Assembly (NCBI GenBank): GCA_964036295.1
Contig: OZ038462.1
Span: forward strand, 40,653,680 to 40,717,679
Length of the DNA: 64,000 nucleotides
Source of the DNA: Plumapathes pennacea
Lineage: Eukaryota > Cnidaria > Anthozoa > Antipatharia > Myriopathidae
Direction of reading: 5' to 3'
Below, piece after piece: positions 9,446 through 59,768 of the stretch. Numbering within the stretch: the stretch's first letter is position 1; every line of letters starts with the position of its first letter. Under the pieces are notes generated by a model. The model made no database searches, was not told where the DNA came from, and saw only the letters and a list, made by a program, of their open reading frames with translations. The translations under genes and the position numbers were made by a program.

Positions 9446-9909
9446 TTACTTGCAAATCAAACTCCGATTATCTACCCGCCGAGACTGCTTGGATGAGTGG
9501 CTCCGTCTGCTCTCGGCGCGCTTCAGAATCTCTCCAAGTTTGGGCTGGATAATTCCCAGGAGGGGGCGGTTGATGTGGTCCCCGCTCCAGCAGGCCTCCA
9601 TCAGGGCCCAGCAATCGTCCTCAAAGTTCGACAACCGCTCCGGTCGGATACCGCGGCGTACTGCAGACCACAGGTGGTCCTTACTCGCGCACTGCTCGAA
9701 CGCCAGCGGTAGACGCACCGTTCCCGCGCAAACGTACCAGAATAGGATGCCAAATGCGTACACGTCCACGCTGTTGTCATAGCGACCCGAGAACAGCTCT
9801 GGTGCCATGTGGATGGGCGTACCCACGATTGAGCCGGACATCATGGCTTCCGGTTTACAAAAGCCCAGATCTGTGATCTTGCCTCTGTTCTTTGAGTCGA
9901 GCTAGGCGG

Positions 9910-14193: not shown

Positions 14194-17100
14194 TAATCAA
14201 GCAAATTATCATTAACTGCTAAGATGTAAATCGTGCAGACTGCATGATATAAGATTGAACAGCTTTGAACAAGTTTACATTGGTCTGAGAGTCGATATAA
14301 GGAGAACCATATAAAAACCAATGAATCTTTTGAGCCTTAGTTGAATGCAGCCAGTTACTGCCAAGATTCAGAGCAGCAAAGATAAACAACGTATCATGCA
14401 GGGCAGCAAATCGGTGACAGAACAAAAGAAAGTGCTCAACAGTTTCGTTTGATTTTCCGCAAATACATAAAGGCGAAGGAATGCAACCCTTTAAGTATAA
14501 GTGAGCGTTGAGAGCACTATTACCTAATCTTAGTCTAGTATGGAGAATTGAAGGATATCGGTCACCAACATAGAATAAATAATTTCTCGGTGATATACGA
14601 AAGCTGTCATTAAGTAGTTGTTTTTTGAAAGAAGCTGGTGATAAGCATTGACGTATTCTGTATAACAGGTTGTTCCATAATTGGATTGTAGAATAAATGA
14701 AAGACTTTTTAAACCTTTCAGTAAGAGACTGAGGCAAACTAAGATTGACTCACTCGAGCAGAGACAGTATGATGTGCGTTCAATGACTTGTTTCGGACAT
14801 ATAGACTGCAAGTATGATGGAACTAACTTGTTAAAAATTTTGTACATCATAACTATTTTGAGAACAGATCGCCTATTTTCCAATGTATGCCATGACATAT
14901 CTTCAAGTAAATTCGCCCTATGAGTCCCTTTCACTGCTCCAGTGACAAGCCTAGCAGCTTCAAATTGTACTCCCTCAAGCAAGTCACTCTCTCTAGTCAA
15001 GCAACCGCCCCAGACAACATCAGCATATTCTATGGTAGAACGGATAATGCTTTTATACAAAACTTCCAACGCAAATCTATTCAGCTTAAACTTCAGTCCT
15101 TTTAACATGTTTAACCTTTTAGAGGCCTTTTGATGTATTTTTAAAATGTGTGGACGCCAAGACAGATCACATGACAAAGTAACGCCAAGGTGGTCATGGG
15201 AAATAACCTCTTCAATAGGACGGAGTGCAAGATACAAAGAAGGATGTATGGGTTTTATACGTTTGGAAGAAAATGTCATAGTTTTTGTTTTGGAGGCATT
15301 TAGGGTCACTAGCCAGCGATCCGACCAATCAGAAATGGCTTGCAAGTCATTATTGAGTTTCTCAGCAGATAGTTCAGGTGAAGATACTTTTTCCAACAGA
15401 AAAGAGTCGTCAGCAAAAAGAAAACAGTCAGAGGCAATTCCAGTAGTTATATCGTTTATATAAATCAGGAAGAGCAGTGGCCCAAGTACAGAACCTTGCG
15501 GAACACCTGCTTGAATTTCACGCCACTCAGAATTTAGACCATCCACTACAACTCTTTGTGAACGCCCTAGTAGATAACTTCTAAACCAATTATATAAGTT
15601 TCCTGTAATCCCTAGTTGTCTACGTTTTGCCAACAATCCCTTATGCCAAACCCTGATGAAAGCTTTGGATATGTCCAAAAACACAGCTTTAACTTCGTTT
15701 CCTCTTTCTAAAGCATTTACAATTTATCGACAATGTAGATCAGTTGCATGATCGTTGAATCGCCTGGTCGAAAACCAGATTGTAGGTGGTAAAAGAATCC
15801 AACCTCATTAAGAAAATTATACAGTTGAATAAAAGCAAGTTTCTCACAAATTTTAGATATGCAAGGTAAGAGATAGACCGGACGGTAGTTAGAAGTGACT
15901 TGTTGGTCTCCCTTTTTGAATAAAGGCAGTACATTAGCCATTTTCCAAGAGTTGGGATATTGACCAGAAGAAAAAGATAAATTGACTAACCGTGGCCACA
16001 AATTTTAAGGATTCTGTTGCTAATACCATCATGTCCACTCCCTTTTGCAGTGTTTAGGTTGTTTAAAATATTAAGAACCTCATTTTGCGATACTCTTATG
16101 CATCCAAGGGTATGGTTAGGGGAAAGGGCAAGGAAGATTGGGAGTATCAATTGAGTTGGATCCTGGGAGAAAAGTCTGAGCAACAAAATATTCATTGAAG
16201 ACTTCAGCTTTTTTCTTAGAGTCAGTAATGAGATCGTTGTTCTCTTTCAGTGGAGGAATAGAAGAACATAATTTGTCGCCATATAAAGATTTAGTTATTC
16301 GCCACCACCTTTTTAAGATGTGCTGGGATCAGACAAGAGATTATTAATCTTCTTTTCGTGAGCGGATTTTGCTATGCGAATTAAATGTACAACCAAATTA
16401 CGCTGCTGACGGTATTTGTCCCAGCGAGATGCCAATTTTGACCTGGAAAAAGCTTTCAGAAGGTGATCACGTTTTCTCATTGCACACCTAATTGTGCTGT
16501 TCATCCACAGCTTGTCACGCGTGCGTATACTGTAACAACACTCTTATGTGGAATATGAAAACTAACAGTTTTATAGAACAACGAAAACCATTGTTCATAA
16601 ATAGTGTCAATATTCAATTCAGATCTAGAGCTTGAGAGTATGCTGTCCCATTCAGCAGTAGCAAGGGTGTCATTTAACACATCCACTTCAACGTCGTTAA
16701 AATTCCATATAATGTCTTCTGTACGTGTGTTGCTTCTTAATGGGGATGTTTAGATTAGCAAAAATCAAATTGTGATCACAGTTGGCAGGGGGACTAAAGG
16801 TACCAGAATGAGTAAAAAGACCCGGGGAATCTGATATAATCAAATCAAGAATAGATTCACTTGAGGACGTAATTCGGGCCAGTTCGTCAATTATTTGAAA
16901 GAGATAAAGTTTGATCCCCACATCCGTATTACGTAAAATAGTCACAACGAAATTATAATGGGCAATTCAGATCACCAACAGAATGACAGCTGCATAACTC
17001 ATGGTATTAGTTTTGTCTAAACTATCTTGTAGTCTGTATGTGCTACACAAACAAGAATCTCTGGCTTGAGAGACCCAGGAGTCACTTGCAGTGTGTATGC

Positions 17101-19241
17101 ACAGTACTGTAGTTAAGCCAAACAACCAAACTAAGGATCATGTTTCCATATAAACTTACATGCTTCAAGGAGGATGTTGCTGACTCCTCGCATTCCCAGA
17201 CATGATCCTTATCCATCTTCTCCAGACTTTCAAGACATCTTTGTAGAGTTCCGACAAAGCTCTCGCGCAGATATTCCACAGACTTGATCATATTTGCAGC
17301 TACTGACTTGTTGATTCTTCCAAGAACCAGCTCCCGAATCATTTGCGTACAGTAGTCTAAGTCCTTTGGATTTGAGAGTTCTTCACCTGAAGTCATGGAG
17401 ACTCCAGTGAACTCCAGTTTCTCTGCTTCAGCAATGACACTCTGGGAAATGGCAAGTATGGTTGAGTGAATTTCTCCTCTGATTTCTTCCTGCTTTCTAT
17501 TGGCACTATCCATCAGTGCGGCATACAGTTCTGCCTCTTTCTCCTTGGCATATTCAATTCGTCTCGGCGTGATAGAAATGTCCCTGGCCATGTCAAATGC
17601 TGTGGTGATAAACATACTCAAAACCCTAGCATGTGCATCTTGTAAAACTTTTGTGGCTGCAAGTAAGTGATACTGGAGAACCTGCCTTATGAATAGAAGG
17701 AAACAAGGAAACAGAGAAAAGTCTTCTATTAAGTTTGATTTGGGGTACACCATCAGGTGGGTTTTCGAATCCTTTCTTCTAGGCTCCTTGTTATTCTCTT
17801 CAGTGTCACAAGATAGATAGCCTGCTTCACATAACTGTTCAAACAGATTAGAAACACTGCTAGTCTTTGAGGCCTTGCCACTGTCAGCACATGGCTCTGG
17901 GTTTGCCTCATTGATTTCTGCAAGTACTTGATCTCGTCCAGATTCAGTCATGGATTCGGTCAGCTGCGATACTGACTTCTTGTTACACTTGACAAAAAAG
18001 ATGGCCATGTCAGGAGCAAGAGCCTTCACTTGCATCAGCTCCGCTTTATCCTGTAAACAATAACATTACAAAATTAGATTGGATAAAAATTTCGCTTCAA
18101 CCTTTCTCAACATCAAACTTTCATATGCCGAACTCAATGCAAATTAGCTCAAACAGTGTGCTAATTTGAATTCAGTTTAGCACGGCAGTGGCGCAACGTT
18201 TGAAATGGGCCCTTTGGGGTACTAGACAACAATAGAGATCAGGAGCAGTAGTAATGAGAGGTAATCATACGTCTTGATGTTTATAATAACACAGATAAAT
18301 TATTAATTACAGCACCAAAAAACACTATAAATGCGCAGTATATATATATTTTTTTACGAACTGCTTTCGTTTTTCGTACAATACATGCATATAATATTCT
18401 ATTTATGAACACGGAAGGTTCACGAAATGTACAACCTCAAAAGAAATAAAGTACAAATTGATACGCTGTACTAGTTTAGTACTTTTTATGACCGTAGACT
18501 AACCAAATAAAAAAGAGGAAACAAAGTATTGCAACAACAACAACAACAACAACAACAATAACATGATGATTTGTGAGAGATTGCACATGCATATAAATTC
18601 ACCTTCTCGCTGAGGGAGTCACGTTCGATGGCGTACAAAACGATTGGCAGGACATCTTCACAACAGGCACGAAAAATGTTCTCAACGTCTCCTTCGTGAT
18701 TGCTGGGCGAGCAAACGAGTTCTGCCCCCGCTTTCAACAAAGGATGGTTCAACGAAATCTCAGCCACAGCGCTCGCCATTGCAAGGTCCTCCTTTTGCCC
18801 ATCATTCAGCTCAAGGTCAGCGCGAGGTACACACTCCCAAGATCCTTCATATGCATCGAGAGCTGCTGCTAACTCAAAACTGCCCGGCAGAACCAGGCTA
18901 ACATTCGAGATGCTTCCATACTTGATCCGAATCATCCGCCATGAAGTGCGGCTGTCCAATTCACCGACAGCGGGAAGAACCGGCTCGCCGAGGAGCTCGT
19001 TGATCGCACATACCTTTGCATAGCACGTCTGTCCCAGGACTAAGAGAGTCGGTGGTTTGTCACAAACCTTGCCAAGAAAGTTGTACTCTTCATCTGCCAA
19101 GTGGTCTGAAAGAACGTCTCGACTATATTGTCCCGTTTCGTGTATTTCCTGAAAATATCGATTCGTGTCGCGTTTTATCTGCTTCAGGAGCTTCGTGTAC
19201 TCTTGAAACTTGGTGATCTCGTACGGAAGGTTTGCAGCCAT
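9446..19241 (-). CDS. DSTYK: Dual serine/threonine and tyrosine protein kinase
   Basis: Known role of the family: a cytoplasmic/membrane-associated kinase (RIPK5) linked to FGF-receptor signalling and cell death. Coding exons on the minus strand: 19241-18603, 18050-17160, 12479-11932, 11429-11183, 9901-9446; all phases close and give 926 aa, against 929 in human. The N-terminal ~590 residues form the DSTYK-specific region, starting [12 protein letters not shown] with a GTPase-like [11 protein letters not shown]. The kinase domain (about residues 635-900) shows the Gly loop [13 protein letters not shown], the Lys in [27 protein letters not shown] in place of DFG as in vertebrate DSTYK, and [10 protein letters not shown], so catalysis looks retained. 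ATG 19241 is the natural start. The stop TAA at 9446 overlaps a GTAAGT string, so a further 3' exon cannot be excluded, but the length already matches. LINE relics sit in introns 2 and 4. Confidence 0.96.
9910..9947. repeat. (AAC)n microsatellite
   Basis: About 12 AAC units lie just upstream (in gene sense) of the last DSTYK exon. Read on the gene strand it is a GTT tract close to the acceptor of that exon. Confidence 0.9.
9990..11065 (+). mobile_element. 5'-truncated LINE (CR1/L2-type) in DSTYK intron 4
   Basis: An open frame from about 9990 to 10803 encodes the C-terminal part of a non-LTR reverse transcriptase. It has the YADD active-site box at 10002-10013, then [46 protein letters not shown] and [13 protein letters not shown]. 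Near 10735 one frameshift occurs; the continuation (ending SYLFIEAF and a stop at 10853) is in another frame. A 3' tail of (ATT)n at 10999-11064 ends the copy, as is usual for this LINE group. It lies antisense to DSTYK. The 5' truncation falls just before YADD, where a stop codon precedes the open frame. The limited decay suggests a fairly recent insertion. Confidence 0.88.
12677..12840. mobile_element. Near-palindromic foldback element with 14-bp target duplication
   Basis: The left arm from 12679 (GAATTGTGAATTTGATCATC...) and the right arm ending at 12840 are inverted copies over about 75 bases with few mismatches; the centre is a short hairpin loop around 'gattccctt'. The 14-base direct repeat CAATCTGAACACTG flanks it (12663-12676 and 12841-12854), as expected for a target-site duplication. 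It lies in DSTYK intron 2. Confidence 0.82.
13148..13450. repeat. Tandem duplication, ~150-bp unit, two copies
   Basis: The segment 'gctctgtgttgca..gagtgg' to 'gactcgcgattgcc' occurs twice in tandem (about 13148-13300 and 13301-13450). The copies share 'gccaatatctgggataataa' and 'cgactcgcgattgcc' with small indels. It is intronic in DSTYK and non-coding. Confidence 0.8.
14110..16990 (-). mobile_element. Degenerate LINE (jockey/CR1-like) in DSTYK intron 2
   Basis: Read on the minus strand, the remnant starts in the endonuclease domain with VGDLNCP near 16985 and LDLIISDSP near 16850. It then continues through several broken frames (16945-16697, 16686-16313, 16195-15717) into a long reverse-transcriptase stretch at 15684-14530 with [13 protein letters not shown], the FADD box, and ALNASK-type [13 protein letters not shown] shifted frame at 14737-14219 carries the C-terminal region with a Cys-rich [14 protein letters not shown] zinc-binding motif. 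The 3' end has a simple tail (TTTA/TTA repeats, 14131-14198 on the plus strand). Multiple frameshifts and the missing 5' end make it inactive. Confidence 0.88.
18110..18216. mobile_element. MITE remnant related to the element at 26053
   Basis: It contains 'gcaaattagctcaaac' and ends 'gcgcaacgtttgaaatgggccctt', matching the core and the right terminus (GCGCGACGTTTGAAACGGGCCTT) of the complete palindromic copy near 26053-26177. It lies in DSTYK intron 1. Confidence 0.6.
18531..18558. repeat. (CAA)n microsatellite in DSTYK intron 1
   Basis: About nine CAA units just 3' of the first coding exon of DSTYK. Read through on the gene strand this gives a poly-Cys run, but that lies beyond the splice donor at 18602 and is not coding. 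Confidence 0.85.
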
Positions 19242-20693
19242 GTTACACGGTTCACTTGGTAATCTGAAGCACTTTCCTGCGCCTCATTGTACCAATGAAG
19301 AAATAGCAAAACCTGTCGAATCAAGCACTACTTGTGCAAGAACAGGAAACCAAAAATCAATACGTCAGCCCTAATTAGGCCATGATTACCATATATAGTA
19401 AATGGCGCCCAGTCTCCCCTTGTTCGTTTGATCATGTACTTTTGTTTTGGTTAGAGCCGGGGGTTTGGGCAGACTTATCGACTGAAGTATTACACCAGGA
19501 ATTGATAACCGCACAAACTTCACGCACAGAACACAGGGGCTAGGCTCCATTTTCTAACATAGAGTTTTAAAGATTTTGAATTTATTCTTAAATGTGTCCC
19601 GGCCGGCATAAATTGTTGCTGCTTGTCACTACGGATTTTAAAATTTCTTTGGCTACAAAATCCTCACCCTCCCAACATACGCAGAATCTCGCTCAATGTG
19701 CCTCAACCAAATGTTAAAAAGCAGGTAATTAATTCAGCCTCGCATCTCCCATGTATATACAAAAGTAAATGAACCATTACAGTTTCCCTGCAAAAATGCT
19801 CACAGCAGAAAAAGTAGTGGCTTCCTTACTATCAGTCTCTCCGGTATAACAAACAGCTACGCTGACAGACTATGGAGAAACAGAGAACAAACAGACGCTC
19901 AACAAATGTTCGATGATTTAATAGCGGCACTTAAACCTTCTGCAAACGCACCGTCTCAGTTTTTCTATCCAGAGAAGTTCTAGGAGATGAGCAAAATCTC
20001 ACGAACGCCGTGTATACTACCAAAATATACAAACAAACAAATATTATAGTTTAGTGCTGCTCGAAATGCATGTTTACTGAGGCTTTCGTGAGTTGAAGCT
20101 TCGAGCGTTAGCCCTTTATCAGAGAAACCCTAAATCGCTTATCCTCCAAACGTCACTGCATTACTGTAAGCAATACCAACTGTCGAAACAGAATTACTTG
20201 AAATAATCGCAAGGCTAAACTAGTGCATGTATACTTGTGCACTACATAATATATATACATTTTGCTTACATATAATATTACACCAAACTCCTCACAATTT
20301 ACCATAATAAGCAGCATGGTGATCCACTGCGCCTGAAGCTAACTGTCAAGAAACTTATCTCTGATAATGATTACACTATCAAGAGTCAAGCAAATAATAA
20401 ATGACTATAGGGTAAGATGTATCAACAAACAAACTGGTTTGAGTCCTGGTTCTTCAAGAATTCATCAGTTTTGACATTGATACGTTGTACAAGAGTAAGA
20501 CAATTAGAAACAACTTAATTCAACTTTAGGTTACATTCCAACTTTGTGCCTGAAATTAAAGTGGACGAGAACTTTTTTTTTCGCACTTCAAATAGCTGGA
20601 AAATTTAAGATTGAAAGAGTTTCTGCCATCACCAACCAGCAGATAAATTAGTCGACTTATGCTTCTCTTGTCGACCAACTGAAAGGCAGTTCG
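19242..20693. other. Intergenic: DSTYK promoter side and USP19 3' side
   Basis: This is a 1.45-kb spacer between two minus-strand genes. It should carry the DSTYK 5' UTR/promoter (right after 19241) and the USP19 3' UTR (before 20694). I see no coding region, no clear TATA box and no repeat of note. Confidence 0.5.
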
Positions 20694-37011
<16,318 letters not shown>

Positions 37012-43479: not shown

Positions 43480-45211
43480 TATCTATATTTCTCAACTTAT
43501 TAACGATTTCCGAAAGGGGCTTATGGTTTATTCGTTTGTTGTTTTACAACAAGAGAAGATGATCCAAGTGACCAAAAATATTTTTAGATTTGCCAAGAAT
43601 TAAATCACCACCCATACTTCCCTGCACAAACTGATTCAAGCCGAGTAAACTTAGTGTAGGATATTACTCATGACCGACAATCGACTGACCCAGATTAGAC
43701 ACAAATTCAACTAAAGATTCGTAGTAAAAGGTGTTACCGATTCCATGTCTTTTAATCTCGGAGAATTTTATCTTCTGTTTCCTTTAATTGTTTAACTTTG
43801 GCTTTGCATCAAACCACATTTAAAACAAACCGACACTGCTGATAACTAAATATTAACACAACGATCTGTTTCTACAAAAGTTGGAAGTGCGGTGACGCGG
43901 AAGGAAGAGGAACTGTAAACACTTAGGTTGACGTAAAGGCCAAGAGAAAGTAATTGTAACTAAAAGCAATCACCTCCGTATTTCAAAGCAATTCATGGTC
44001 AAATGTTTCTCATTACTTCATCTATAAGCAGTATATGGGGTGATACATGAAGCATTTGATCACTTTGTACAGTAGGCAGCTAATCAACTATAAATTGTCT
44101 TTGTCACCCACGCTTTCTCTTCCGTCTTCAGTTTATAGTGGGAAAATTTGCATTCAAGGTTTAATTGTCGTGTTGTCGATTTACACTTTGTGTGAAAATA
44201 TACATTTCCCGACAAGAACGAATAAAAGAAAGACAAACAAGTTTAATTCTCAAAACAAAGTAAATTAGCTATTTGAGAAAAGCAATTTTGTCCTTTGCTT
44301 ATTTGTCCCATACATTTCTGACACTGTTAGCTGGCTATAGCTGGAACAAAAATAACAACAAAAAATTAATTGAAAAAATACAAAGAAAAAAAAGGAAGAA
44401 AGCTTTGGAAAAAAAAAATTAATTACAGTTGTCTTTTTTTTCTTTTGTGCAGTTCCACTATTTGGGAAAAATACAATCTTACAAGTTGATTTAATCGAGA
44501 AGCAATTTGGAAATATTCCACTTAAGTTGGACATAAATAAATAAATTGTGGTTACAACTGTAAAAAAACGTTTCTAAAAATCTATTAAGCTATACCTGTA
44601 GCTTGCTTTTTTCTTTGAAGGTACAAAATCTTGTATTCACTATTTAACTAGAGCAACATTAAACACATGCACCACAAGGCTCTGTGTTTACATCCTTTCC
44701 CCGTTACTGTCATTACTAACCAAACAAGAAAAATCTCATTTCCTATGAATTAATTTTGAACGACAAGTTCATGATAACCCTTCATCCCTGTAGGTAGCCC
44801 TACAGCCGTAACAACCAAAACCTCACATCGGAAGACGTATACGGAAAGAAACCTCAAGATATTGGCGCTGTTTAGTAACAGACTAATTTAGTGAAAATTC
44901 GATGTTTAAGCTGCATAAACAGCCATGTAAATAGCAGGTATCTTAACCATTTGAGGTGAATGAGCGTCGACGAAATGGTGCCAAAATAATGGCATCTCAA
45001 TAAACTTATGTCAAGCCAATCAAAGAACAAAAACAACACAGGATGCAGTGCAAGGCAAATGCAATTGGACGGTATCATAACATGTGATATCTCGATGACG
45101 GTAAATCTCCCGATTTGGCAGGATAAGCTGTGTAAATAGCTATACAAAAGCAGGAATATCAAGAAGGGAATAGCTAGCACTTAACCAAGGGAGCTAACTT
45201 AAGGCGCAAGA

Positions 45212-46273
45212 ATGCCCAACAGATCCGCGCTGCAGCCTCCGGAGGATCTTCGTGAGATCCGTGTTTTGTGGGACGCATACAATGTAGTTTATTTTGCCAC
45301 TGGCATCTTGATCGCTCTCTTGTCAATTATCACCGTGGTAGGCAATGGTGTGCTGCTGTTGGCGATCTGGAAAGATCCGTTCAAATCTTTCAGAACGCCA
45401 ACCACCATCTTCGTGATCGGTCTCGCCTTGGCAGACCTCATCACGGGCGCTATTGTAGGTCCGTGTGCCTCGTATGTGAGCTTCCTTTCCTACATGAAAA
45501 TACTCAGGCAACACAAGGAGACATACAACACGCTAGTGAGTGTCTCTAGCCACGTGGCATCCATCACAATGAATACGTCGTTTTTTCTTCTGCTTGCTCT
45601 GACATGGAGTCAGTTCACTGCCATCCATTACCCCTTCAAGCACAAGGATGTAGTGACGAAACGCCGCGTCTTTCTGGCTGTTGTGGTGATCTGGGTCTAT
45701 TCCATCCTTCTGTCGCTGCTTGGAGACTTTGGCGTGCCGTACGATATTGCAAGAGAAATAGACATTCACTTGAACACTAACACTGTCCTAGTTTTCTTAC
45801 TGCTGGCCTATGGCTGCCTCCTCGTAGCCTTTTTGCGGCATCTACACAACGTCAACTCTCTAGAGGAGAGCAAAGCCAATCAAGAACGAAGGCGCGAGCA
45901 AGAGAGGCGTTTCACCTCCGTAAACTTGCTTCTTGTCACATTCCTTCTTGTGTGCTCATTACCTTCGATAGTGATTTGGCACCTGGAATTGTACAGGTTT
46001 CCCAACCAAAGCTTTGAAAGCGTACAGCAAAGGGCTCGCTTTGCAATCGCACAAGTTGTGGCGCAAGCAGTGCTTCAGATGAAATTTGCTCTGGACCCGT
46101 TTGCGTACGCGTGGAGGCTGCCAAAATACCGCCAAGCTTTCAAAAAGATGATGACATGTGGAAGGAACGGCCTTCAGGAAGACCCAAGTTCTGGGAATAC
46201 TTTGTCAACGAGTGGCACAGGTCAAACAGCTTCGCCAGTGCAACTGCGCCGTTATAAACGGCCCACATCTTGA
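45212..46273 (+). CDS. Intronless atypical class A (rhodopsin-like) GPCR
   Basis: A single 353-aa open frame with seven hydrophobic segments at roughly 23-50, 62-85, 108-135, 148-170, 187-210, 232-256 and 272-300. Class A hallmarks are kept in TM1 (VVGNGVLLL) and TM2 (GLALADL). Others are changed: the TM3 DRY position reads SQF (W132-S133-Q134-F135), TM6 has VCSLPS instead of CWxP, and the TM7 NPxxY is DPFAY (295-299). No Cys pair of the TM3-ECL2 type is evident. The start at 45212 has N-glycosylation potential (NRS). Such one-exon orphan receptors are numerous in cnidarians; the ligand is unknown. The C-tail is Ser/Thr-rich. Coupling may be altered because the TM3 Arg is missing. Confidence 0.9.
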   Translation: MPNRSALQPPEDLREIRVLWDAYNVVYFATGILIALLSIITVVGNGVLLLAIWKDPFKSFRTPTTIFVIGLALADLITGAIVGPCASYVSFLSYMKILRQHKETYNTLVSVSSHVASITMNTSFFLLLALTWSQFTAIHYPFKHKDVVTKRRVFLAVVVIWVYSILLSLLGDFGVPYDIAREIDIHLNTNTVLVFLLLAYGCLLVAFLRHLHNVNSLEESKANQERRREQERRFTSVNLLLVTFLLVCSLPSIVIWHLELYRFPNQSFESVQQRARFAIAQVVAQAVLQMKFALDPFAYAWRLPKYRQAFKKMMTCGRNGLQEDPSSGNTLSTSGTGQTASPVQLRRYKRPTS

Positions 46274-47359: not shown

Positions 47360-50300
47360 TCACAAGCATGTCTGGAGGATCCCTTCTTCACTTCCAGACA
47401 GGTCGTACACCATACGAGTCTCGCCAACTCCATCCGCCCTAGTGAAGTCGTCCATTTCGTCCTCAGAAACACAGTCCCCATTTGATTGGACATTGTGGTT
47501 TTCGTCGACAAGAGTGATCTCGATTTCAGGCAATCCGCATGTTTCTTCGTCTCCCGGCCTGTCCGCCTCCTCAATACGAACTGTTGGGATCGCAAAGGTC
47601 CTTGGGGTCTTTTTGCATTGAACATTACCTTGTACCTCGTCGTCGACCCAATCCTCTTCAAGGTGCATTACGGGGGATTCTGGCGGTGAGTGGTCAGCGG
47701 ATGATCCTGACGTGCCAGCCAGTTGCAGGTAATTCACGTGTATGAACCTTTGAGGTGAGGACTCGCTGGCATCTGAGTCTGATTCGTTGTCGCTAATGGC
47801 TGGGCTGTCATGTGACATAACGATAGTCGTTTCGTAGCTCTGTAGCAGCGTCGAGTTGTCGTCAGCCTTCTGTGAATCTGCAGGCGCACCGCTTTCGTGA
47901 AGGTTTACGTCGTCCATTGACGAAGCCCCTTTGACCATTGCTTTGTTTCCTTTCTTTGTTGCTGGGGGCAACAAGTCTAACAGATGCTCAGAGAGCCTTC
48001 GTAAGTTTGGATTTGGCGTTGATTTTGGCTTCGCCTTAATTTCCTTGATATCGTCGTCCAAAGAGGTCGTTGAGCAAACCGAGATCCGTTTCTTCGGCAC
48101 TTCCGACTCGGCCTGTCGTAGCTTCATAAGTGACATATCTGTCAACAGTTGCAACTGGTCTCTCTCCCGCTCCACTTGTTGTCTCTTCTGCATTATCGTG
48201 GCAGCCTCTTCTTTAAGCCTTTCCTTTTCATAGTGAACCTCTTCTAGCTTTATGCTTAGCTCCTTGATATCCTTCGTACTTTGTTCAAGAGCCGCTTTCG
48301 CTTGATTCGCTTCAGCGAAAACGCTTTCGCGTTCGTTGATGAGTCGATCTCTCTGCTTGACGACTCCATAGAGCTGTTCTTTTAAACTTTGGATAGTTTT
48401 ATCACTAGTAGATATGTAACGCCCGTACCTGTTGTCCAGTTCTTGGATCGAGTCCGTGCGATGCCGCGAGCTTCCACCTACTTTCTTGTCAAAGTCCTTT
48501 CCCACTGCCTTCAGAGCCGCAATCAGCTCATCCCTTTCTAAGAGAGTGTCTTCTAGCATGCTCTTGAGATCTTGAATGGTTCTCTCGCTTTCATACTTGT
48601 ACAGTGTGAATTTCTCTTCAGTCAATCTTTTCACTTCTTCAGCAAGATAGCGTGCACGCTCGCTTTCCGTGGCGCGATCATTAGCCTCGTTCAAGCGGAC
48701 CAGGAACGTTTTGGAGATCATTTCAACCTCTTTCAGACATTTTGTTTCCGCTTCTTGAATTTGGTGTAGAATCCGAGTTTTCTCAGCTTCGGCTCGTTTC
48801 TGCAGAGCTTTGGCTTTTAAGGTCTCCAGCTCCGCCGATTTCAGTCGATCCATAAAGTTTCCCTCGCTAGAGAAAAGACTGCTTGGCCTTCTCCAGAGGT
48901 CAACGGATTCATCCCATTCCATAGTGGACCTGCGGCCAAGAACATTTTCTGACCTTCGTCGGAGTTTAGCTTGTTTTGAACTTTCGACAAACACCTCATC
49001 ATCCATCAGATTTTGAAGTCCACTTGAACCTAAAGAAGATAACAATTCATCACAGAAGAACTCATTCTTATCTTCGAGTAGTTATCATCCAGGTTCTGTG
49101 CATGTATACATCGAAAGTCGACTGGGGAATGGCAAATACTTTTGAAGGCAAGAGTATCAGTTGTTCGTGTAGGGGGTCGTCCGGGTAGCAATAAAACTGT
49201 AATTGTTGGTGACTGACGGTTCGACCTGACCTTCAGAGTCAAGTGAAGATTCGTCATCAGAGGTACCTACATTGCTTCAGGTTGAAAAAAGAAAACTAAC
49301 CTTCCAGAGATTGCGTGGACCCGCTCGGAGTGGAATCCAGTAATGGCACCTGGATGTGCTCGCGGATATCCTGGAATGTTGGCCGTACCTCGGGGACCTG
49401 ATGAAGTCACGTTGCAAGATGTAGTGAAGGGAAGGCATTATTCAAATTTCCACCAAAACCAGGTTTCTACAGTACTTTAGAGCATATGCTAACCAAGCCT
49501 CAAACCTAAACCTAAACCTTTGGATTTAGTTAAGTGGTGGTTAGCATGTGGTCATTCATCAAATACTTACAGCTCGTAAGCACGAGGGCAGGATTTCTTG
49601 AAAGCTGCCAAGCTGCTCCGCAGTGGTAGCCACACTCCCATACTTCACAACCTAATGAAGAAGTCAAAACGAACAAACTGACAAAAGAAACCTTAATAAG
49701 GTTTGAAAAATTGAACGACTTCTGCTCCAGCAACCTTTAAGCCTAAAATATAGATTTTTCCCACCATTTATGACGAGACAATATAGGTGACAAAAAGAGA
49801 ATTCATAAAAGGTTCAGTTGTCTCCTGTGCAAGCGATCAGCTAATTTCCCCATGGCATACTACATGTTTCTGCTCTAAGGTAGTAAAGAGAAGATGTATT
49901 TTGGGTATTTTGAGTTTTGTAATAGATTTTAAAAATAGCTCGAATGACAAAGAAAGAAGTAAAAGGGTGTTCAACGAGATTTGGTACAAATTGATGATAG
50001 AGTGGTTTTCTTCATGTAGTTGTGACGTAATAAAGTTACGATGACATCAACACCACGGTACGAATAGCTATACCAAATTGATTAAATAGCTATACCAAAT
50101 TGATTACATGGATGGCTAGAACATTGGCCTTATAAGATATCAATATGCCTACATTGTTTCTGATGTTACTGACCTGTTAAGGTCCACACGTCTGATATCA
50201 TGTGATGTCAAACTCACCTGGTCGACACTTGTAATTGGTTGTTGACCAGCAGTGAGTATGATATAAACAAGCAGACCTGCAACAGATATAAAGAAGCAGT

Positions 50301-53300
50301 ACAGTGAAGAGATGAGAAACTATGTACGTAAGACAATGAAGAACATACAGAAACAGAAACAGAAACAAGAGCAAGGAGAAGAGTAAGCGTAAAAATATGA
50401 GCATAAAAGCAAGAGCAGGAGAAGGAGCAAGAACAAGAACAAGGGCGATAGCAAGAACAAGAGCGAGTGTAAAATAATTAGAATGAGAAAGAGCTAGACC
50501 TAGAACAAGAAAAAAAGCGACAGCGAGAACGCTAGCAAAAGCATTTATTCAGCATCAGCATCCAGGGACGAGAACGAGAATAATGACAACAACAACAACA
50601 ACAACGACGACGACGACGACGAGCGAGCGAGCGAGCGAGACAAGGACAAGAATGAGTAAAATAAAAGCGGGGGTGGGGAGTCTTAAAATACAGTAGCAGG
50701 TAGATTAAGGCCCGGAGGGACACCCTCCAAGAAGAGTAAAACAATAGTCTCCCTTTACATGCCAAGCGCTACAGGGTGACCCTACCTATTATGTAAACGG
50801 AACAAGGAATTTCAATAGAGAAGGGTGAGCCTTCTAGGATGGTGTCCCTCCTGGGAGGTTACACTCCTTCCATGTAAACAGAACCTAAGAAGACTGTGCA
50901 GAGAAAGACGAGGACATTTTTTAAACACACCGAATGCCCACGTATCTGATTTGCTCGTTGCTTCGCCTGAGTGAGTCTCTGGGGGTGGAATGGAAACTTT
51001 ATTGATATACCCCTCAAATGAAAGAGGCGTAGTGCACCAAGGAGACCTATGAAGCAACAACAAGCAAATATAAGTTCGGTAGTCATGTTGGATTTGAATG
51101 ACTAAAAGTACAGCAGTTTACCTTGAGTTATGAAATCCTGACAGTTTTATAGATCCGTTATCACCAACCAAGCAGTGTTCTGCCACCTGCGAAATCGAAC
51201 CATCGAAATCATTAGCAGCCTTTTAGCGTATCCACGTCAACCTTAAGTTGATACATTATACATTATACTTATTTAAATCTCTGAGCAGAGGCAGATTTTA
51301 AAATTAGTTCTCATAGGGGCTACAATCTTGGACAAAGTTTGTTAACACATGCTTCATATTCCAAAATTTTGACAAAACGACCACTGCACGCTCATAAGTC
51401 ATCTGATTGCAGAAAAACTGTTTATGATCACCCCCTCCGCCTGGTGTTGTTTCTCGCTTAAGGACGAGTTCCGGTAGGGTTTTGAAGGGAAACCAAGGTC
51501 CAACAATAATTTGTTTAACGTTGTATGTAGCATTCCATCTTTTTAGCTGCACCTTATCTTTTATGTCCCATCGTATTGCACCTTAACTTTTATGTCCCAT
51601 CGTACTGCACCTTATCTTTTATGTCCCATCGTACTGCACCTTATCTTTTATGTCCCATCGTATTGCACCTTATCTTTTATGTCCCATCGTACTGCACCTT
51701 ATCTTTTATGTCCCATCGTATTGCACCTTATCTTTTATGTCCCATCGTGTGATACAAATGCGACTCCTTTCTTACCAGTTCTCCATGGACGATTCCGTTT
51801 CCTTCGAGGTACACCATTCCATTCAAGACCTGACTTGTAATGCGCACCAATTCGCTGGGATGCAGCAAAAGCAGCGAGGAATTTCTTTCTAAATACTGTT
51901 TCAAATCACCTAAAGAATGGAACCACACTGTATACTCACTGACATATTTTACTCAAACCTACAACTGTCAATTTTGAAAAAGAAAATGTATGAATCCTCT
52001 CTCAATGAATATACTCTAATGGTATTGGCAGTGTTCATGTTGTGTTGTCTCATCTGCAAAACACGCAGGAAATAGTTATCTAATCCACGACTTTAGGACT
52101 TGGTTAGTACACTCTGTAAAGTGGAGTCCTCGTTTTGAAGTGGACCCGTTAGGTTCAGGTATCAGAACAAGATCTCTACGCCGCTGCCCTCTCCTCACCT
52201 CGGAGACATTTGTAAAATGCTGATTATCTTACGATGTTAAGGCAAATGATGCGCACCTTTCGTCAAAAACTCGTGGATGAAGAAATTCCTCGTTCCTTTC
52301 ATACCAACTCCAAACAAATGTACAACGTTCTCGTGATTTAATGTCCTGCAGGGAAGAAAATAACATCCTCAACCTGACCTCTTCTAGAACGCCTTGGGTT
52401 CCTATTTCTCTCCATTTATTCGTAATTTGGCTCTTATTTTCTCAAATCAATCATGATTTGATTTAATTTTAAGACCAACCACGAAGGAAAAATCAATCAC
52501 ATAACTATTTTTGCTAGTGTAATGGGTTAATACAGTCATACTCACATAATCAACTTCCCCTCGTTTGTGAATTGCTCCTTTAATGTATCCGAGCTTCCTT
52601 CGGGTAGAATATGAACCAAAACATCCTTCTCATGAAATTTTCCAGCAAACACTCCCTGGCAGAAGAACAAAAGACAATTGGTTCTGACAAGTGTTGCTTT
52701 TTTAAATTAAATCCTGGAGCAATAATCTTCAGTAATTCTATATTGTGTTAAACTGGGACTCTCCAATGCTTTTGTTTGCTGAAAATTTGTACAAAATCAA
52801 AATTCAACACGAAAAAACAATCAAATTGATGGCTAAACAAATCTTCACGAACAAATCGGATAGAAATGGATTTGCCCTGAAAATGGCGGATCGAGGATTG
52901 CGACGCACAAAGGACTGTGGTTGACACAGAGGGCCGGCCTCTCAAGGTAAACAACTTATCAGAACATAGGCACGACCGTACAAACAAAAACGAGCTTGAA
53001 ATATACAACAACTCACAAGGCAAGAGCCGAACTGTAGAAATGTCTCATCTGCTTCGACTTCGCTGGTTCCTAAGCCAAGTCAAAGCCTGAGTTTGACATT
53101 GGCTACTCCAATAGAGTAATCGTACTTATCATTAGTCTTACCCATGGAAGTTCAGAGGGTTGCTCTTCGCTGGACTCGATTTCTGCCCAGTCAACTTTCC
53201 AGATTTCTAACAACAGAAAGGAAAAGCTTGATTATATTTCAAATTCATTGATTTCACGAGACTATGTTTACGGATGCAGAGTGAAGGTGCAAAAGGTGAA

Positions 53301-56300
53301 AAGAGAGTTCCGACCTTGTGTTCTTTACAAAAATTCGGAACTTACCACCAATATTTTTCAGTGTTGGAAACTTGTCCAAAGTTATTCCTAGCGCTGCAAA
53401 AGGAATATAAAGGGATAAATTATCGTAACACCTGCATTAGAATCTGGGAACCTTGTTTTAACTTTGCACACGGCAATCACACAACCCCTCCCCCTTTCCT
53501 TTTCAATGTTGGAAAGCGGACATCCAAGACATAAGGGGGAAGGGGGATAATGAGCGTCAAAGCTGTGTGTTAGAGCCGCCCAAGATAGGTGTCCCACACA
53601 GTTTTGTGTTGGTTTGTAAACATGATACTAAGACTATGAAATTGTTACTGACTAGGCCGCCGTTTGCACTGATCCAGGAGTTCCTGCACGCTTTCAAATT
53701 GAAGAAAGTTGGCGAACGAGACCGAGTCCGACTCATCCTTCAGACGGAAATTCTGACTTGATTCGTCAAACGTTATTTCCACGTGTTTTATGGTCTTCTC
53801 TGTTCTGTGAAGCGAAATAAACACATTCAAATAATAAGCCAAACGTGGGGTTCAGCCAATTACATTTGAGCAAACACTTTGAGCAGCAGCACAGAACGGA
53901 CTCGTTCTCAGGCGAACTCCCTTCCCGGGAAAAGGGTCTGGAAACGCAGGACGATGAACTTCACGCCAGAGCACGACGCATCGCATTACATTAAAAGGAC
54001 GACATCCAAAGGCTGTAGCTTTAACTATGACCGCTGTATAATATGTGACTGGCACAACACATAACAAACATTGTGCTATATTTAATCGAACATGGCATAA
54101 GACAGCGAGGATTAGAACAACAAAACTCAGCACGAAGCTAAATAAAATCTGCAGTAGAATGATATACACTGTACTACGTACTGTGCTGGCTGAGGTTTCT
54201 AACGTTATCCTATCGTCAGAACAAAAAAGGAATGGAAACTAACCTGAATGAGAGTACAGTCCGACTCCCAAAGGATTTCGTACGAAGACAGAAGCATCCT
54301 GGATTCTGCATCCCACGCCAAAGTAAACAACCAAATATAGAGAGAGAAAGAAAGAAAGAAACAGTGAACAAGAACGTATGTCCACGAGCTACGCAAGCAC
54401 GAGTAATATGCGTCCGTGAAAACGAGCAACGCAAACATGGGCGCAAGAGCAAGGAAAAGGAGACATTTGATCCTTGTGCTTGCTCTTGCGTCGAGCCTGT
54501 TTTCACTGTCAAATTATATGCTTGCGTCACTGATGAAAACTGGGTTTAAAAGGTGGGAACTTAAACTCTCGTGCCTTCGTGTTTCACGCGGGGTACAATG
54601 TTGCGTGCACGAGTCTCTTCCTTTTCTGGTCTGATGAAGATCTGTGATGCTTTGAGTACAATAATTTCCAATCAGAACACTTTACCTGATTTCTTAGAAT
54701 AGCAGTTGTAATTGCTGTTGGGATCTCTCCGAAGAACCACCTGCACGAAGAAGGAAGTCAGTATTTTAGATTATTAATGCATCCTGAAGCCTGAAGTTAG
54801 TTGGAATCACAAAGGTTTACAACCTACTTTTCCTGTTTAGTTTTATTTAAAATGCGTTTAAAAAACTTATCCATACGTCTTACATAACAAAGCCCGAACT
54901 GAAATTTTCAAAATAATCACCAGTTGACAATAGGGATTACAAATTCTAGGAGAACTGTGATGAGAAGGAGACTATTTTCTCTATGTGAGAGCCCGTGACA
55001 GGCCATCGGCTTCGAGCGACGATTATATTGGCGCTGTAATAACGTTGGTTTTGGTGTCACAAAAGGCAATGGAGCAGCCAACAGAGATAATTGGCACTTA
55101 AAGAGACCCTCTCACCGTAGATGCTTTGCGCGCCCATGTTTATATTTACATTCGGAGCTCGACTTTCCTGAGGTGCTCACGTTATGACTGATCGATCTGA
55201 CTGTCGCTGCTTGCCGTATTCAATACACTTTCTGAGTTTGTGCTGATTTATTTCGCGATAAAATATAGAAAAACATGAGAATCCGCCATTTTCGTATGAT
55301 AGGAAAATGGCCACCGTCAGTCACTGGGCGCGCAAAGAATCTACGGTGAGAGGAGTCTCTTTAATAAGCGCACATAAGCACTCCTACAAGAAGTATTCAA
55401 ACCGTACATGTCTTGCGTTTTGTCGGAGAATAAAAACTTAAGACTTACACTTTGATCCTCCAACAAATAACTCTACCACCTAAAACAGATCGTACTCTCA
55501 CTGTGGCTTGGGGACCAGGGGCAGAGGAAGAGCGTCTACGTTGTCTTTAGTTCCGTTCACTCTTTCCCTGCACCACTTTTCGTCCCACCCCTACTCACCG
55601 CGGTGCCTGTGGAGCTGTCGGTGCTCGCTAACATTCTTATTATACTTACGGTTCGTCCTCAAGCTCCGACAGTGCGACACACTCTTTGGGAACAATTCCA
55701 AAGTCACTTGTGCTGAGGGAAAGACAAGGATCGAGAAAATAGATCATCTAAGTGTACAGTGTACGGCGTGCTAAATGATAGAAAACAAATCTCTTCTGCT
55801 GTGAACGCTCTATTTAGTGGAAAGATGGAGGGTCCAATCCTGGCTGAAAACCAACGCAACTTGTTTAAACGTCTTTAACTTACGAGTGATGTAGTAAGAA
55901 TTGATAGCCAAATCAACTGTCAAATGATCAAGCTATCAAATACCAAACTCTCCATAATAAATCACTAGAGAGACACTGAAAGAGAAAGTTGATCACCTAA
56001 TCAAGAGAACTTAAGGACCCAATGTATCCCTGAAAAAGGCTGAACCAAATGGGACGTTTTGTGAACTGTAGTCTCTGCGGTTCAACCATGTCTTTCTATA
56101 CTGGGAGATGTCTCTTGACTGTCGAGGCCTGATACATTGTGGCAGCCAAAATGGAGACACAACAACTTCCAACTATAACAGCCTCCAGCAATGGCGGACA
56201 TCTTCAGCCATTAGGAAATACCTGTCGCAAGTGAAACCCACGCTATTTGCTACAAACTAAACCTCGTACTCGTTCGATACTTTTAATGGTACTGCGCGGG

Positions 56301-56989
56301 GTTACAAGCAAAATCAACGCCATTTCTGGATGGGTAAAAATAAGTGCAACTAATGCATACTCACGAGGATGTCGAAAACGCTTTCCACTCGAGTTTCGAA
56401 GATGCGTCTGTTATGGTCAGGTGGTTCCCCTGTACGTAAGAAGAGGCACGCATTAATTAAATCCGGGCAACACTTGCTTTTGTGTGTGTCAATCAAAACC
56501 TCATAGGACGTGATTTTCGGATGGCGTTACACTAAACTATACCAAGACTAGAGCCTTTTCTCCAGTCGTGGACTTGACGCGCATAATGTAATACTTTCCG
56601 CAAAGTACACCAAGTAATATACACATGCACATTTCTGAACAAATATTCAAGTTTCGTGGGTTAGGGGCATACTTAAGGGACAAGGGAAACAACACAGACC
56701 ACAATGACAAAATATGGACAGTCACTATATAGTACAGCTTACCTCTCGGAAGGGCAATCTACCAGGGTGACTGGACGAATACGACTCGCGCGCTACCACT
56801 GAGAAGCCTCGGAAAGGAATGGCTGAAGACAGCTAAACGGCAAGCGAAAAAGTCAGAAACTGTGTTTTTAGAAAGTCATAGGCACGTTGAGACACGACAC
56901 CAATCTCGTTTTCATATTCACCTTCGTATTTGTTCCTTACCTGGATTCTCTTCTTCTTCAATTCTGGTAAACCTACAACAAAAATAAAC

Positions 56990-57025
<36 letters not shown>

Positions 57026-59768
57026 AATATGTCAGATAGTAATATCAAACAGCGATATTTCTCTGTCATTCTGCACTTTTCCGCTTCCACCTTGCAGCTT
57101 TAAACACCAACACAAACCAAATGCACTCACGGTCTTACTTCTCTTCACTTACCGTAGCTCGTGCATGGTTTACATCCGTGCGACTGCTTAAACGAAACTG
57201 CTGCACAGCAAGTCCAGTTGCTGCCCACGAACCTCCCAGGATGATGGAAAGCCAGACACACAGGGTTTTCAGCGCAAGCTGCCAGCAACGGAGAAAAGGG
57301 TCAGGGTAGTTATTTTGGAGTGGTTCAAACAAAATTAATCAAGATGAAAATTTAAAAGTAACCCTGTCACAAGACAGAGCACATCTAAAATAGTGTTTAA
57401 GCACAGATGAACCATCAGAAACTGAATGGCGAGCTTTTAAAAGTCAGCAAAATAGGAGACTTTAGTAAGGGGCGAACAAGCGTCCACTCTCCCGTAACCT
57501 TACTAAAGTCTGTTATTCAGTTTCCGATGGGCCAATCGTACTGGAAAAACCTGGAATACTTACTATTCTGGATGTGTGTTACTATTCTTTGTTTTGACAG
57601 GGTTATTATTTTTTATTTGATTCGTCTTACACAACTCCGATATCATGGCTAATAAGTGCAACCTCGTAGGATTTCGGATAGGAAAATATGCTTTTGGTAA
57701 AAACCTTACCATATCTCAGCGATGTTAACCATGAATTAAACTCTTCCACATCGTGAGCACAAAAGTACATCGACCGTCTGTTGTCATCCTTCTTGCTGTG
57801 GCTGAGATAAACAATCTGTCAAATAAGGAGCGCAAAGCATAAACAAACAAATAAACAAATAACGACTCGGAGTCAAGGCGGACTACGGAAGTTTGACTGC
57901 ATGTCCATGGAAAATGCCACATACTCAAAGTTTGAATGAAAAGAGGGATTGTGACTGGAAATGTATGGCAAATGCCATGATGTCGCTGTGTAAATAACTT
58001 ATAAGTGTATAAATATGAACTGGAAGACTGACCGAAGCCTGTAGAAAGTGCCATGAATTCGGTGCCTGCATTCATGGGTCTAAATGTGCGTACTTAAAGT
58101 ACACTCCGACACCGACAATAGAATAATTTCAAATAACCCGGGTCTGTACTAAATTCCATTAGTGAGTGTGTAGTAGTATCAAGAGACCACAATGTTTCTT
58201 ATTTGTGTGTATTAGGTGAAACATATATAAGCATAATCGATCTGACGGAAGACAGTGCGGCCGCCAAATCGGTCACGGCCTCTGCACCAAGTAGCCGCTA
58301 TCCAGCAACTGGCAAACATCGATTATATGCAGATATGCTCAAGGCCATTCTACAGAACGTAGAAAAATGGAAATCGACTCGCAAAAAGAAAGGCACTTTG
58401 TTGTTCTTTTATCAGCCAAATGCCAATAGCTAACGTAGGTGGAATTGCAATTCACAAAAATGCTACTCATTTTTATATCAAACTACCTTAGCTTAACCCC
58501 GAGGTGTCCATGTTGCAAACAAAATTATAACGCGCAAGATTGACACTTTCCGGCTGTGGCTTGTTGCCTCTAAATAAATAAATTTCATGACACTCACCTG
58601 AAAGCAAGTAGCCTTGCCGAAGGCTTTCAGATCGACTTCCTCAACTGCTTGGATGTCGTTGACGTTGATCGAAAATAATGGTTTTTCTTTATTCGTCTGC
58701 GGATATAATAGATAAATACGTTTGAATATAGGTTTATTAGGTGTACACGAAATTATGCATGCTTATTTTTTTAAGGCCCGCTGGCTCCATCAGAAATGCT
58801 TCGATACCCTCTTGATCTTGAACAAACAGATTTAGATATTGTTTGACTTAGTTTCATGCAATAAAATCGTCTAATGGTATAGCACGTCGTGGCTTATTTC
58901 TCTAAGCAACTTTCAAAACAATGCGCAGAAGTTAATAGTATTTTCTGCTCCCCATACAAACAAGTTGCTGTAAATCAAACGTCTCTGCTGAACCGGATGC
59001 CCACCAAGTTTGATCTGAAGTGGCTCGTCAAAATCCTTCACCCTGAACTGCGTATTAACTGTGTGACTTATCTCACATACGAAGATCCAGAATCAGTGAA
59101 AACTGGACTATTTCCCGAAAAACATATGTAATGAACTACGGGTACACGAGTCAGGTGAGCAACTGGCAATCGAAATTCCGCTCATTAAAGGTCATAGTAC
59201 CTTGAAAAGAACTGTGACTAAGCTTTAATGTAACCGTACTTGTTATTTATACTGATCGATCCATAATTATTGTCTGAACGTCCGCTTAGAGTTCAATTAT
59301 AAAACAAGTTAACTGAAGTTTTGGATAGAAGATTGCGAGCAGAGTAAAATTTGGCTTTAGCGGTTTAAGTGTGCTCGTAGCTGATGGACATGACCAAAGG
59401 ATGATAGACGTCAACGCTTCCATTGTTAGAACTGAGTGATAATAATGATATCTGGTCCCGTTTCTGCTGAAGAAGTTGTAGAACAAAGCGCAGGGTGTGG
59501 AAACCTTTATATATCAGGGCGCTAAATGCGAACGCCCAAAAGGATTAGGATTGTTTTGTCAGATCACATCCACTTTGTTCACAAACCCGACAACCGCATT
59601 GCAACAAACGAATTCACTCACCCACGGCGCCGAGCTGTTGTAGTATTCGAACGCTTCGTCCGTTAAAACACCAAATACACCTTCGAAGACGGACTTGCGC
59701 AAAAAACTTCGCCGCCTGATGCGACGAACAAGAATGTTTCCGCAGAACGTTGCCCGCTTAGCGTCCAT
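47360..59768 (-). CDS. TEC/BTK-like PH-BTK-SH3-SH2-pseudokinase with long coiled-coil tail
   Basis: Exons (minus): 59768-59622, 58696-58598, 57815-57710, 57278-57153, 56972-56941, 56832-56743, 56429-56365, 55706-55650, 55472-55449, 54740-54686, 54305-54244, 53804-53653, 53393-53346, 53206-53142, 52655-52546, 52345-52257, 51909-51776, 51186-51122, 51046-50931, 50276-50218, 49651-49571, 49397-49301, 49029-47360. All phases close; 1182 codons including the stop. Domains: PH (1-117, ends FNSWLTSLRY); BTK zinc motif (H-P-x9-CC-x10-C, HHPGRFVGSNWTCC); SH3 (about 172-240, LTITDASSKLEW, FGIVPKECV); SH2 (250-350, WFFGEI, FCLRTKS with the phosphotyrosine-binding Arg); linker EIWKVDW; kinase fold 377-625. 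The kinase lacks the Gly loop. The Lys is His (DVLVHIL), HRDLAARN is HGELVAEH and DFG is SGF, while PPE, SDTWAFG and the late RPTF persist, so it should be catalytically dead. Residues 627-1182, mostly one exon, form a coiled coil (about 670-960) and an acidic Ser-rich tail. Inferred role: a phosphoinositide- and phosphotyrosine-recruited oligomeric scaffold. Confidence 0.9.
50589..50640. repeat. (AAC)n(GAC)n(GAGC)n compound microsatellite
   Basis: Adjacent short trinucleotide and tetranucleotide runs in the TEC-like intron between the 51046-50931 and 50276-50218 exons. The wider intron (50280-50640) is rich in 'aagaacaagagc'-type purine repeats. Confidence 0.8.
51546..51750. repeat. Minisatellite, 29-bp unit, 7 copies
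   Basis: The unit 'tgcaccttatcttttatgtc' plus 'ccatcgtac' repeats seven times with one-base variants (tta/taa, tac/tat). It lies in a TEC-like intron with the array ending about 25 bases from the splice donor at 51775. Confidence 0.92.
55099..55364. mobile_element. MITE family A, copy 2 (TTAA-flanked, ~260 bp)
   Basis: TTAA precedes AGAGACCCTCTCACCGTAGA at the left; the right end reads TCTACGGTGAGAGGAGTCTC before TTTAA. The internal sequence matches the copy at 39348-39606. It lies in the TEC-like intron between the short 55472-55449 exon and the exon that opens the SH2 domain. Confidence 0.85.
56988..57024. repeat. (AAC)n microsatellite
   Basis: About 12 AAC units in the TEC-like intron just upstream (gene sense) of the exon 56972-56941. 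Confidence 0.88.

Follow-up and report, generated by a model that had tools for sequence, protein, structure and literature searches.

Several described protein families share parts of the architecture considered here. PTK7/CCK4, the JAK JH2 domain and HER3 are tyrosine-group pseudokinases, and we know of none among them with a PH-BTK-SH3-SH2 front end or a C-terminal tail of the present type; the Src and Abl families are, to our knowledge, also without a PH-BTK front end, and GAP1-type Ras GAPs begin with a PH domain followed by a BTK motif. Residues K12, K26 and R28 of BTK, an immune kinase, are those which we take to be the basic PIP3-contacting residues of its PH domain. As far as the accessible text of the relevant accounts extends, the TEC family predates the animals and has remained conserved, CCK4 rather than TEC is named as a pseudokinase family (PMC8662651), and the PH domain of BTK binds PIP3 for recruitment (PMC12326152).

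The window, i.e. the whole 64,000-nucleotide stretch of Plumapathes pennacea DNA that was analysed, contains a gene whose product resembles BTK, TEC, ITK and BMX in its PH-BTK motif-SH3-SH2-kinase order, its zinc ligands and its SH2 arginine, and resembles BTK in the positions and phases of its introns. It differs from these enzymes in being without the catalytic residues, the activation-loop tyrosine, the SH3 tyrosine, the counterparts of R28 and K26 and the SH3 ligand site, and in possessing a 556-aa tail with a coiled-coil-like region and a QTxL end. With Src and Abl it shares the SH3-SH2-kinase order, and the SH3-SH2 part of its profile has its highest scores with Lck and Src, but its PH-BTK front matches Tec and BTK, and a search with the tail returned only members of a single coral and anemone family. 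Its likeness to PTK7/CCK4, JAK JH2 and HER3 lies in a kinase fold with the catalytic residues missing and in a presumptive non-catalytic role. The PH-BTK start is also like that of the GAP1-type Ras GAPs, the class named in the database label of an Exaiptasia homologue, but the coral protein continues into SH3-SH2-kinase, and Pfam, run on the first 621 aa of the model, returned no RasGAP domain among its matches.

Gene structure and genomic setting

Exon-by-exon reading resolved the whole gene into 22 coding exons on the minus strand, from 59768 to 47360, as follows.

59622..59768, minus strand: exon 1, start codon and first part of the PH domain, aa 1-49; V31 codon at 59678-59676
58598..58696, minus strand: exon 2, PH domain, aa 50-82 (model and Pfam)
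57710..57815, minus strand: exon 3, end of the PH domain, aa 83-117 (model and Pfam)
57153..57278, minus strand: exon 4, BTK zinc motif His130-Cys141-Cys142-Cys153, codons 57243-57172
56941..56972, minus strand: exon 5, linker to SH3; junction set by agreement with homologues
56743..56832, minus strand: exon 6, first part of the degenerate SH3 (alignment)
56365..56429, minus strand: exon 7, degenerate SH3 (alignment)
55650..55712, minus strand: exon 8, end of SH3, 63 nt (alignment)
54686..54740, minus strand: exon 9, start of SH2, 55 nt (model and Pfam)
54244..54305, minus strand: exon 10, SH2 with Arg269, codon 54284-54282, the equivalent of BTK R307
53653..53804, minus strand: exon 11, end of SH2, His289
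53346..53393, minus strand: exon 12, SH2-kinase linker
53142..53206, minus strand: exon 13, start of the kinase N-lobe; glycine loop lost
52546..52655, minus strand: exon 14, His385 in place of the VAIK lysine, codon 52613-52611
52257..52345, minus strand: exon 15, kinase-like domain
51776..51909, minus strand: exon 16, HGE in place of HRD, codons 51787-51779
51122..51186, minus strand: exon 17, GFH in place of DFG, codons 51138-51130
50931..51046, minus strand: exon 18, conserved SPWC activation-loop segment (Arg split by the intron) and PPE, APE-like
50218..50276, minus strand: exon 19, C-lobe, found from homologues
49571..49651, minus strand: exon 20, C-lobe (model and homologues)
49301..49397, minus strand: exon 21, end of the kinase-like domain, RPTF
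47360..49029, minus strand: exon 22, coiled-coil-like aa 673-925, acidic/Ser tail and stop codon
47363..47374, minus strand: C-terminal QTCL, class I PDZ-ligand-like

All introns are GT-AG and every phase is compatible, giving a product of 1176 aa with its sole stop at the end; the ORF is complete, and an in-frame stop lies 12 codons 5' of the ATG. The encoded order is PH domain, BTK zinc motif, degenerate SH3, SH2, kinase-like domain, a stretch of ~250 aa resembling a coiled coil, and acidic tail. The original prediction had located all these domains at 47360-59768, and they do lie there, on the minus strand and within one 22-exon ORF; its joined model of 1182 aa gives way to the present one of 1176 aa. 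The 3' end of the gene is unfixed because neither AATAAA nor ATTAAA occurs within ~1 kb downstream of the stop codon, and alternative splicing is possible.

Two candidate features were discarded during assembly. An exon at 49488-49460 was dropped because the homologues pointed instead to the C-lobe exon at 50276-50218, a replacement that raised the Pfam kinase score from 106.5 to 124.1 bits, and an exon 5/6 junction at 56922/56822 was rejected for that at 56941/56832, which agreed with the homologues. Within the exon 16-17 intron, at 51546-51750, a unit of ~29 bases (counted by eye) is repeated in tandem.

Elsewhere in the window, a single-ORF rhodopsin-type GPCR (45203-46273, plus strand; 7tm_1, 7.4e-19) lies on the strand opposite to the TEC-like gene, ~1.1 kb past that gene's stop codon. 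The minus strand also carries the start of a ubiquitin-specific protease domain (32934-33770; UCH positions 1-31, 2.2e-9), a retroelement reverse transcriptase ORF (14530-15723; RVT_1, 5.8e-22) and pieces of a second kinase gene at 9449-9901, 11153-11479, 11931-12512 and 18486-19283, with HRDIK and HMAPE motifs; Pfam recognised a kinase in 9449-9901 (2.6e-10) and none in 18486-19283. These pieces, which we take to resemble DSTYK, are at a guess parts of one gene.

Homologues in corals and anemones

Protein searches recovered nine members of the family (P0001-P0005, P0009, P0010, P0024 and P0025), the remaining matches (P0006-P0008 and P0011-P0023) being kinases outside it. Named homologues include a protein of Acropora cervicornis labelled 'Tyrosine-protein kinase abl-1', LOC141879006 of Acropora palmata, isoform X2 of Nematostella vectensis LOC5521937, which begins within SH3, and a protein of Exaiptasia diaphana labelled 'putative Ras GTPase-activating protein 4B', which covers the N-terminal half only. 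As far as their sequences extend, the homologues follow the same plan; one record (P0002) skips the BTK-motif exon. Spliced structure and relatives alike identify the window as animal DNA. Bilaterian, octocoral and medusozoan orthologues were absent from the named matches, but the search requires shared 5-residue words, and orthologues beyond Hexacorallia may have escaped it.

P0001 aligned over the full length, with 49% identity to the first gene model. Its 1184 aa on a contig of 4506 bases leave no room for introns of the kind present in the window, which suggests that it represents a spliced transcript, and P0004, with 945 aa on 3721 bases, agrees. A single protein unites the kinase part and the tail in each of P0001-P0005, P0010 and P0024, in keeping with the earlier assignment of the tail to the same gene; P0025 carries the tail behind an N-terminus unlike that of the family. 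Identity between the model and its homologues was 52-64% in PH, 34-61% in SH3, 63-69% in SH2 and 48-52% in the kinase-like domain, falling to 12-29% in the loop after the kinase and 16-25% in the acidic/Ser stretch, while the core of the tail (53-66%) was nearly as constrained as SH2.

Descent from the TEC kinases

A profile built from the N-terminal half matched Tec (2lul, 7.9e-8) and BTK (8gmb, 6.4e-4) with its PH-BTK part, and among 60 of 75 solved chains that part matched only Tec and BTK, the others being matched in SH3-SH2. The window sequence used alone gave values that are not significant for PH-BTK (Tec 2lul, E 0.065; BMX, 0.51). Scores with a kinase profile did not separate the families, the Src-Abl ancestor (134.8 bits), ITK (132.7), BTK (128.8) and ABL (124.3) lying close together beneath a top row of 139.1 bits that was summed over a chain with two kinase domains.

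Intron positions provided an independent test. The accessible parts of four reports place BTK junctions at c.392, c.589, c.776, c.839, c.894/895, c.1103, c.1349, c.1567, c.1631 and c.1750/1751 (PMC10560089, PMC7498534, PMC7302398, PMC8857151), and 8 of these 10 fell inside the BTK fragment used, c.392 and c.589 lying outside it. Each of the 8 mappable introns, so far as those reports define them, had a counterpart of the same phase here within 2 alignment columns, 6 of them exactly. When 20 introns were placed at random, none of 100,000 trials reached 8 within 4 columns (the best reached 6), and none of 100,000 reached 6 exact. This test indicates descent shared with BTK, not exclusivity, the introns of Src and Abl being outside the comparison. 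Taken with the PH-BTK match to Tec and BTK, the intron agreement supports the TEC/BTK descent of the gene that the original prediction had proposed from domain order.

Loss of the catalytic residues

The kinase-like domain retains a near-complete fold (Pfam PK_Tyr_Ser-Thr 8.1e-36 within the first 621 aa, profile positions 25-257 of 258), but alignment to BTK revealed replacements at each catalytic motif: K430 by H385, H519-R520-D521 by HGE and D539-F540-G541 by G-F-H. These are features of the family. The VAIK lysine is His in all six covering sequences, the HRD aspartate is Glu in seven of seven (P0025, which has unrelated sequence there, was dropped), and DFG is GFH in seven of seven; P0002, a mispredicted record with other residues at DFG, was dropped from this count and from that for the asparagine at HRD+5. 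P0001 retains the Arg of HRD. Residues G409, G411 and G414 of the glycine loop are P, E and W in the window protein; the alignment places a Gly at G411 in P0001, and G414 is replaced by W in 5/5 sequences compared. The alphaC glutamate is present in the window protein and is Q or H in other members, and the position of the activation-loop tyrosine Y551 is occupied by P510 here and by T, P or A elsewhere. Within the activation loop, the segment R-S-P-W-C is conserved, with S for P in Nematostella.

With the VAIK Lys, HRD Asp, DFG Asp and glycine loop all lost, the kinase of this family is, judged by its residues, dead. The Lys to His and HRD to HGE replacements and the missing glycine loop had been predicted, and the homologue alignment bears them out; the predicted loss of DFG likewise stands, but the replacement triplet is GFH (D to G and G to H) rather than SGF, which was read one register off, its S being the residue that precedes the DFG position.

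Alternative exons encoding an intact VAIK/HRD/DFG set, which would have called this conclusion into question, were sought in the 47-60 kb region. The search turned up none there: the minus-strand profile matches were exons 14-18 of the model, and neither HRD[LIVM] nor DFG[LFMA] occurs in any minus-strand frame of that region. The profile, built from four kinases, saw five of the nine kinase exons of the model (13-21), and the search was limited in sensitivity because exons 13 and 19-21 were missed. An HRD-bearing exon at 11.2-11.5 kb was set aside, as it lies ~36 kb distant and is part of another gene.

Condition of the PH, BTK, SH3 and SH2 regions

Over the first 621 aa, Pfam recognised PH (6.4e-11), SH2 (2.4e-5) and, under its 24-bit cut-off, the BTK motif (2.7e-4, 21.2 bits); it did not recognise SH3, which emerges only when the protein is aligned with BTK, Lck and Src. 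With these two qualifications, the predicted PH-BTK-SH3-SH2-kinase-like order of a TEC protein was present. The first three zinc ligands are kept in 3/3 covering sequences and the last in 4/4.

Against the predicted recruitment to PIP3, the alignment, which included the Tec chain 2lul, placed E29 at BTK K26 and V31 at R28 in all four covering sequences (one misaligned P0005 row having been dropped from the PH residue counts), while the counterpart of K12 is R15, still basic, again in 4/4. The canonical PIP3-binding site has thus probably been lost, as far as its residues indicate. An arginine-rich loop remains before the E29 and V31 positions, and a weaker or other contact with acidic membrane lipids is possible through it. 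The SH3 keeps its place, though its residues at BTK Y223, W251 and Y268 are E (E186), E and C, and on these replacements its proline-peptide binding site is probably lost. Y223 and the activation-loop Y551 are the pair of regulatory tyrosines, both of them absent here.

SH2 is better preserved. Its betaB5 (FLVR) arginine, R269, equivalent to BTK R307, is kept in seven of seven covering sequences, as the original prediction of an SH2 arginine implied, and so is the betaD4 histidine (7/7). The alphaA2 arginine of BTK, R288, is T or S in the coral and anemone proteins, and phosphotyrosine binding could for that reason be weak.

The C-terminal tail

Of the ~550-residue coiled coil originally described, the length holds (556 aa), but only ~250 aa (673-925) are coiled-coil-like and conserved, with 53-66% identity to 8 homologues; the remainder is mostly variable and acidic. 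Residues 673-925 contain 6 Pro/Gly in 253 residues and are 39% charged, but their heptad periodicity is weak, being reached by 100 of 2000 shuffles. The best stretch, 851-925, was reached by 21/2000, while periodicity was not significant in 673-720 (234/2000) or 721-790 (435/2000). A search with the tail matched 8 proteins, all of this family, and no separate origin for it was found among the 8000 candidates sharing most words that were scored.

All nine family members that have a C-terminus end in QTxL. A class I PDZ ligand has S or T at position -2 and a hydrophobic C-terminal residue, and the QTxL end, as a match of four residues, is possibly such a ligand. The tail also contains conserved basic-Ser motifs, [KR]KRxS and LR[RK]LS, and near the C-terminus a block IPTxxIEE (each in 6 aligned rows; IPTVLIDE in P0025), all candidate phosphorylation or binding sites.

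Proposed function and alternative explanations

Since the enzyme part has been lost while SH2, a conserved and probably helical tail and a putative docking motif at its end are kept, the protein probably acts in signalling as a scaffold and not as an enzyme, and we assign a probability of about 0.6 to its being a non-catalytic phosphotyrosine scaffold that combines SH2 docking, tail oligomerisation, PDZ docking and a pseudokinase binding surface. SH2 would attach the protein to phosphotyrosine sites, oligomerisation would come from the tail and PDZ proteins would be bound by the C-terminus, whereby the protein might cluster partners or, at receptors phosphorylated on tyrosine, compete with kinases that contain SH2. 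The pseudokinase, with its conserved RSPWC loop, would serve as a binding surface, and any contact of the basic PH loop with the membrane might be no more than weak and independent of PIP3. Instead of self-associating, the tail could bind partners. A scaffold, perhaps immune or adhesive, had been envisaged in the original prediction, and the catalytic losses, the kept SH2 arginine and the conserved tail favour the scaffold part of it.

STRAD and the JAK JH2 domain illustrate how a pseudokinase can switch an active kinase, and the present domain might bind and switch one in the same way, with the tail and SH2 uniting the pair. The nearly whole fold (25-257 of 258), the constraint on the domain (48-52% identity to homologues) and the conserved activation-loop segment speak for such an allosteric role, but nothing in the sequence indicates a partner, and we regard it as possible but rather unlikely. 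Residual or atypical activity, in which unusual residues would bind ATP and transfer phosphate, is improbable: the asparagine at HRD+5 (BTK N526) is indeed found in five of six properly covering sequences, the window protein with H485 being the sixth, and the window protein has the alphaC glutamate, though others have Q or H there, but the VAIK lysine and the HRD and DFG aspartates are replaced in every covering homologue and the glycine loop is lost.

Very improbable indeed is the explanation that the model misjoins a decaying TEC copy and a neighbouring coiled-coil gene, or describes a pseudogene. The 271-nt intron that parts the final kinase exon from the tail-encoding one would permit it, and P0025, with its different N-terminus, might be cited in its favour; against it stand the single proteins that unite kinase part and tail in the homologues listed above, a P0001 contig too short to accommodate such introns, an intact frame and conserved sites.

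No paper describing such a pseudokinase, in the TEC family or in corals, was found among the best-ranked literature results, which covered titles and abstract openings of papers outside subscription access. The original statement that no such member was known therefore holds for the literature found, but not for the databases, where the family sits as uncharacterised, as 'abl-1' or as 'putative Ras GTPase-activating protein 4B'. We put at even odds the fuller proposal that these proteins constitute an undescribed hexacoral family of TEC-derived pseudokinases, in which the means to sense membrane lipids, bind proline peptides and catalyse would have gone along with the tyrosine switches, phosphotyrosine reading would have been kept and an oligomerising, PDZ-docking tail would have been gained. 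The product would then act, outside Bilateria, either as a dedicated scaffold for phosphotyrosine or as a naturally occurring antagonist of signalling of the TEC type.

Both database names suggest wrong functions and would be corrected by such an assignment. The TEC kinases are an ancient group in which roles independent of catalysis are difficult to tell apart from enzyme activity. A conserved family with the TEC body but no working enzyme would offer a natural test of how the body functions by itself, in corals and anemones, a little-studied setting for such signalling.
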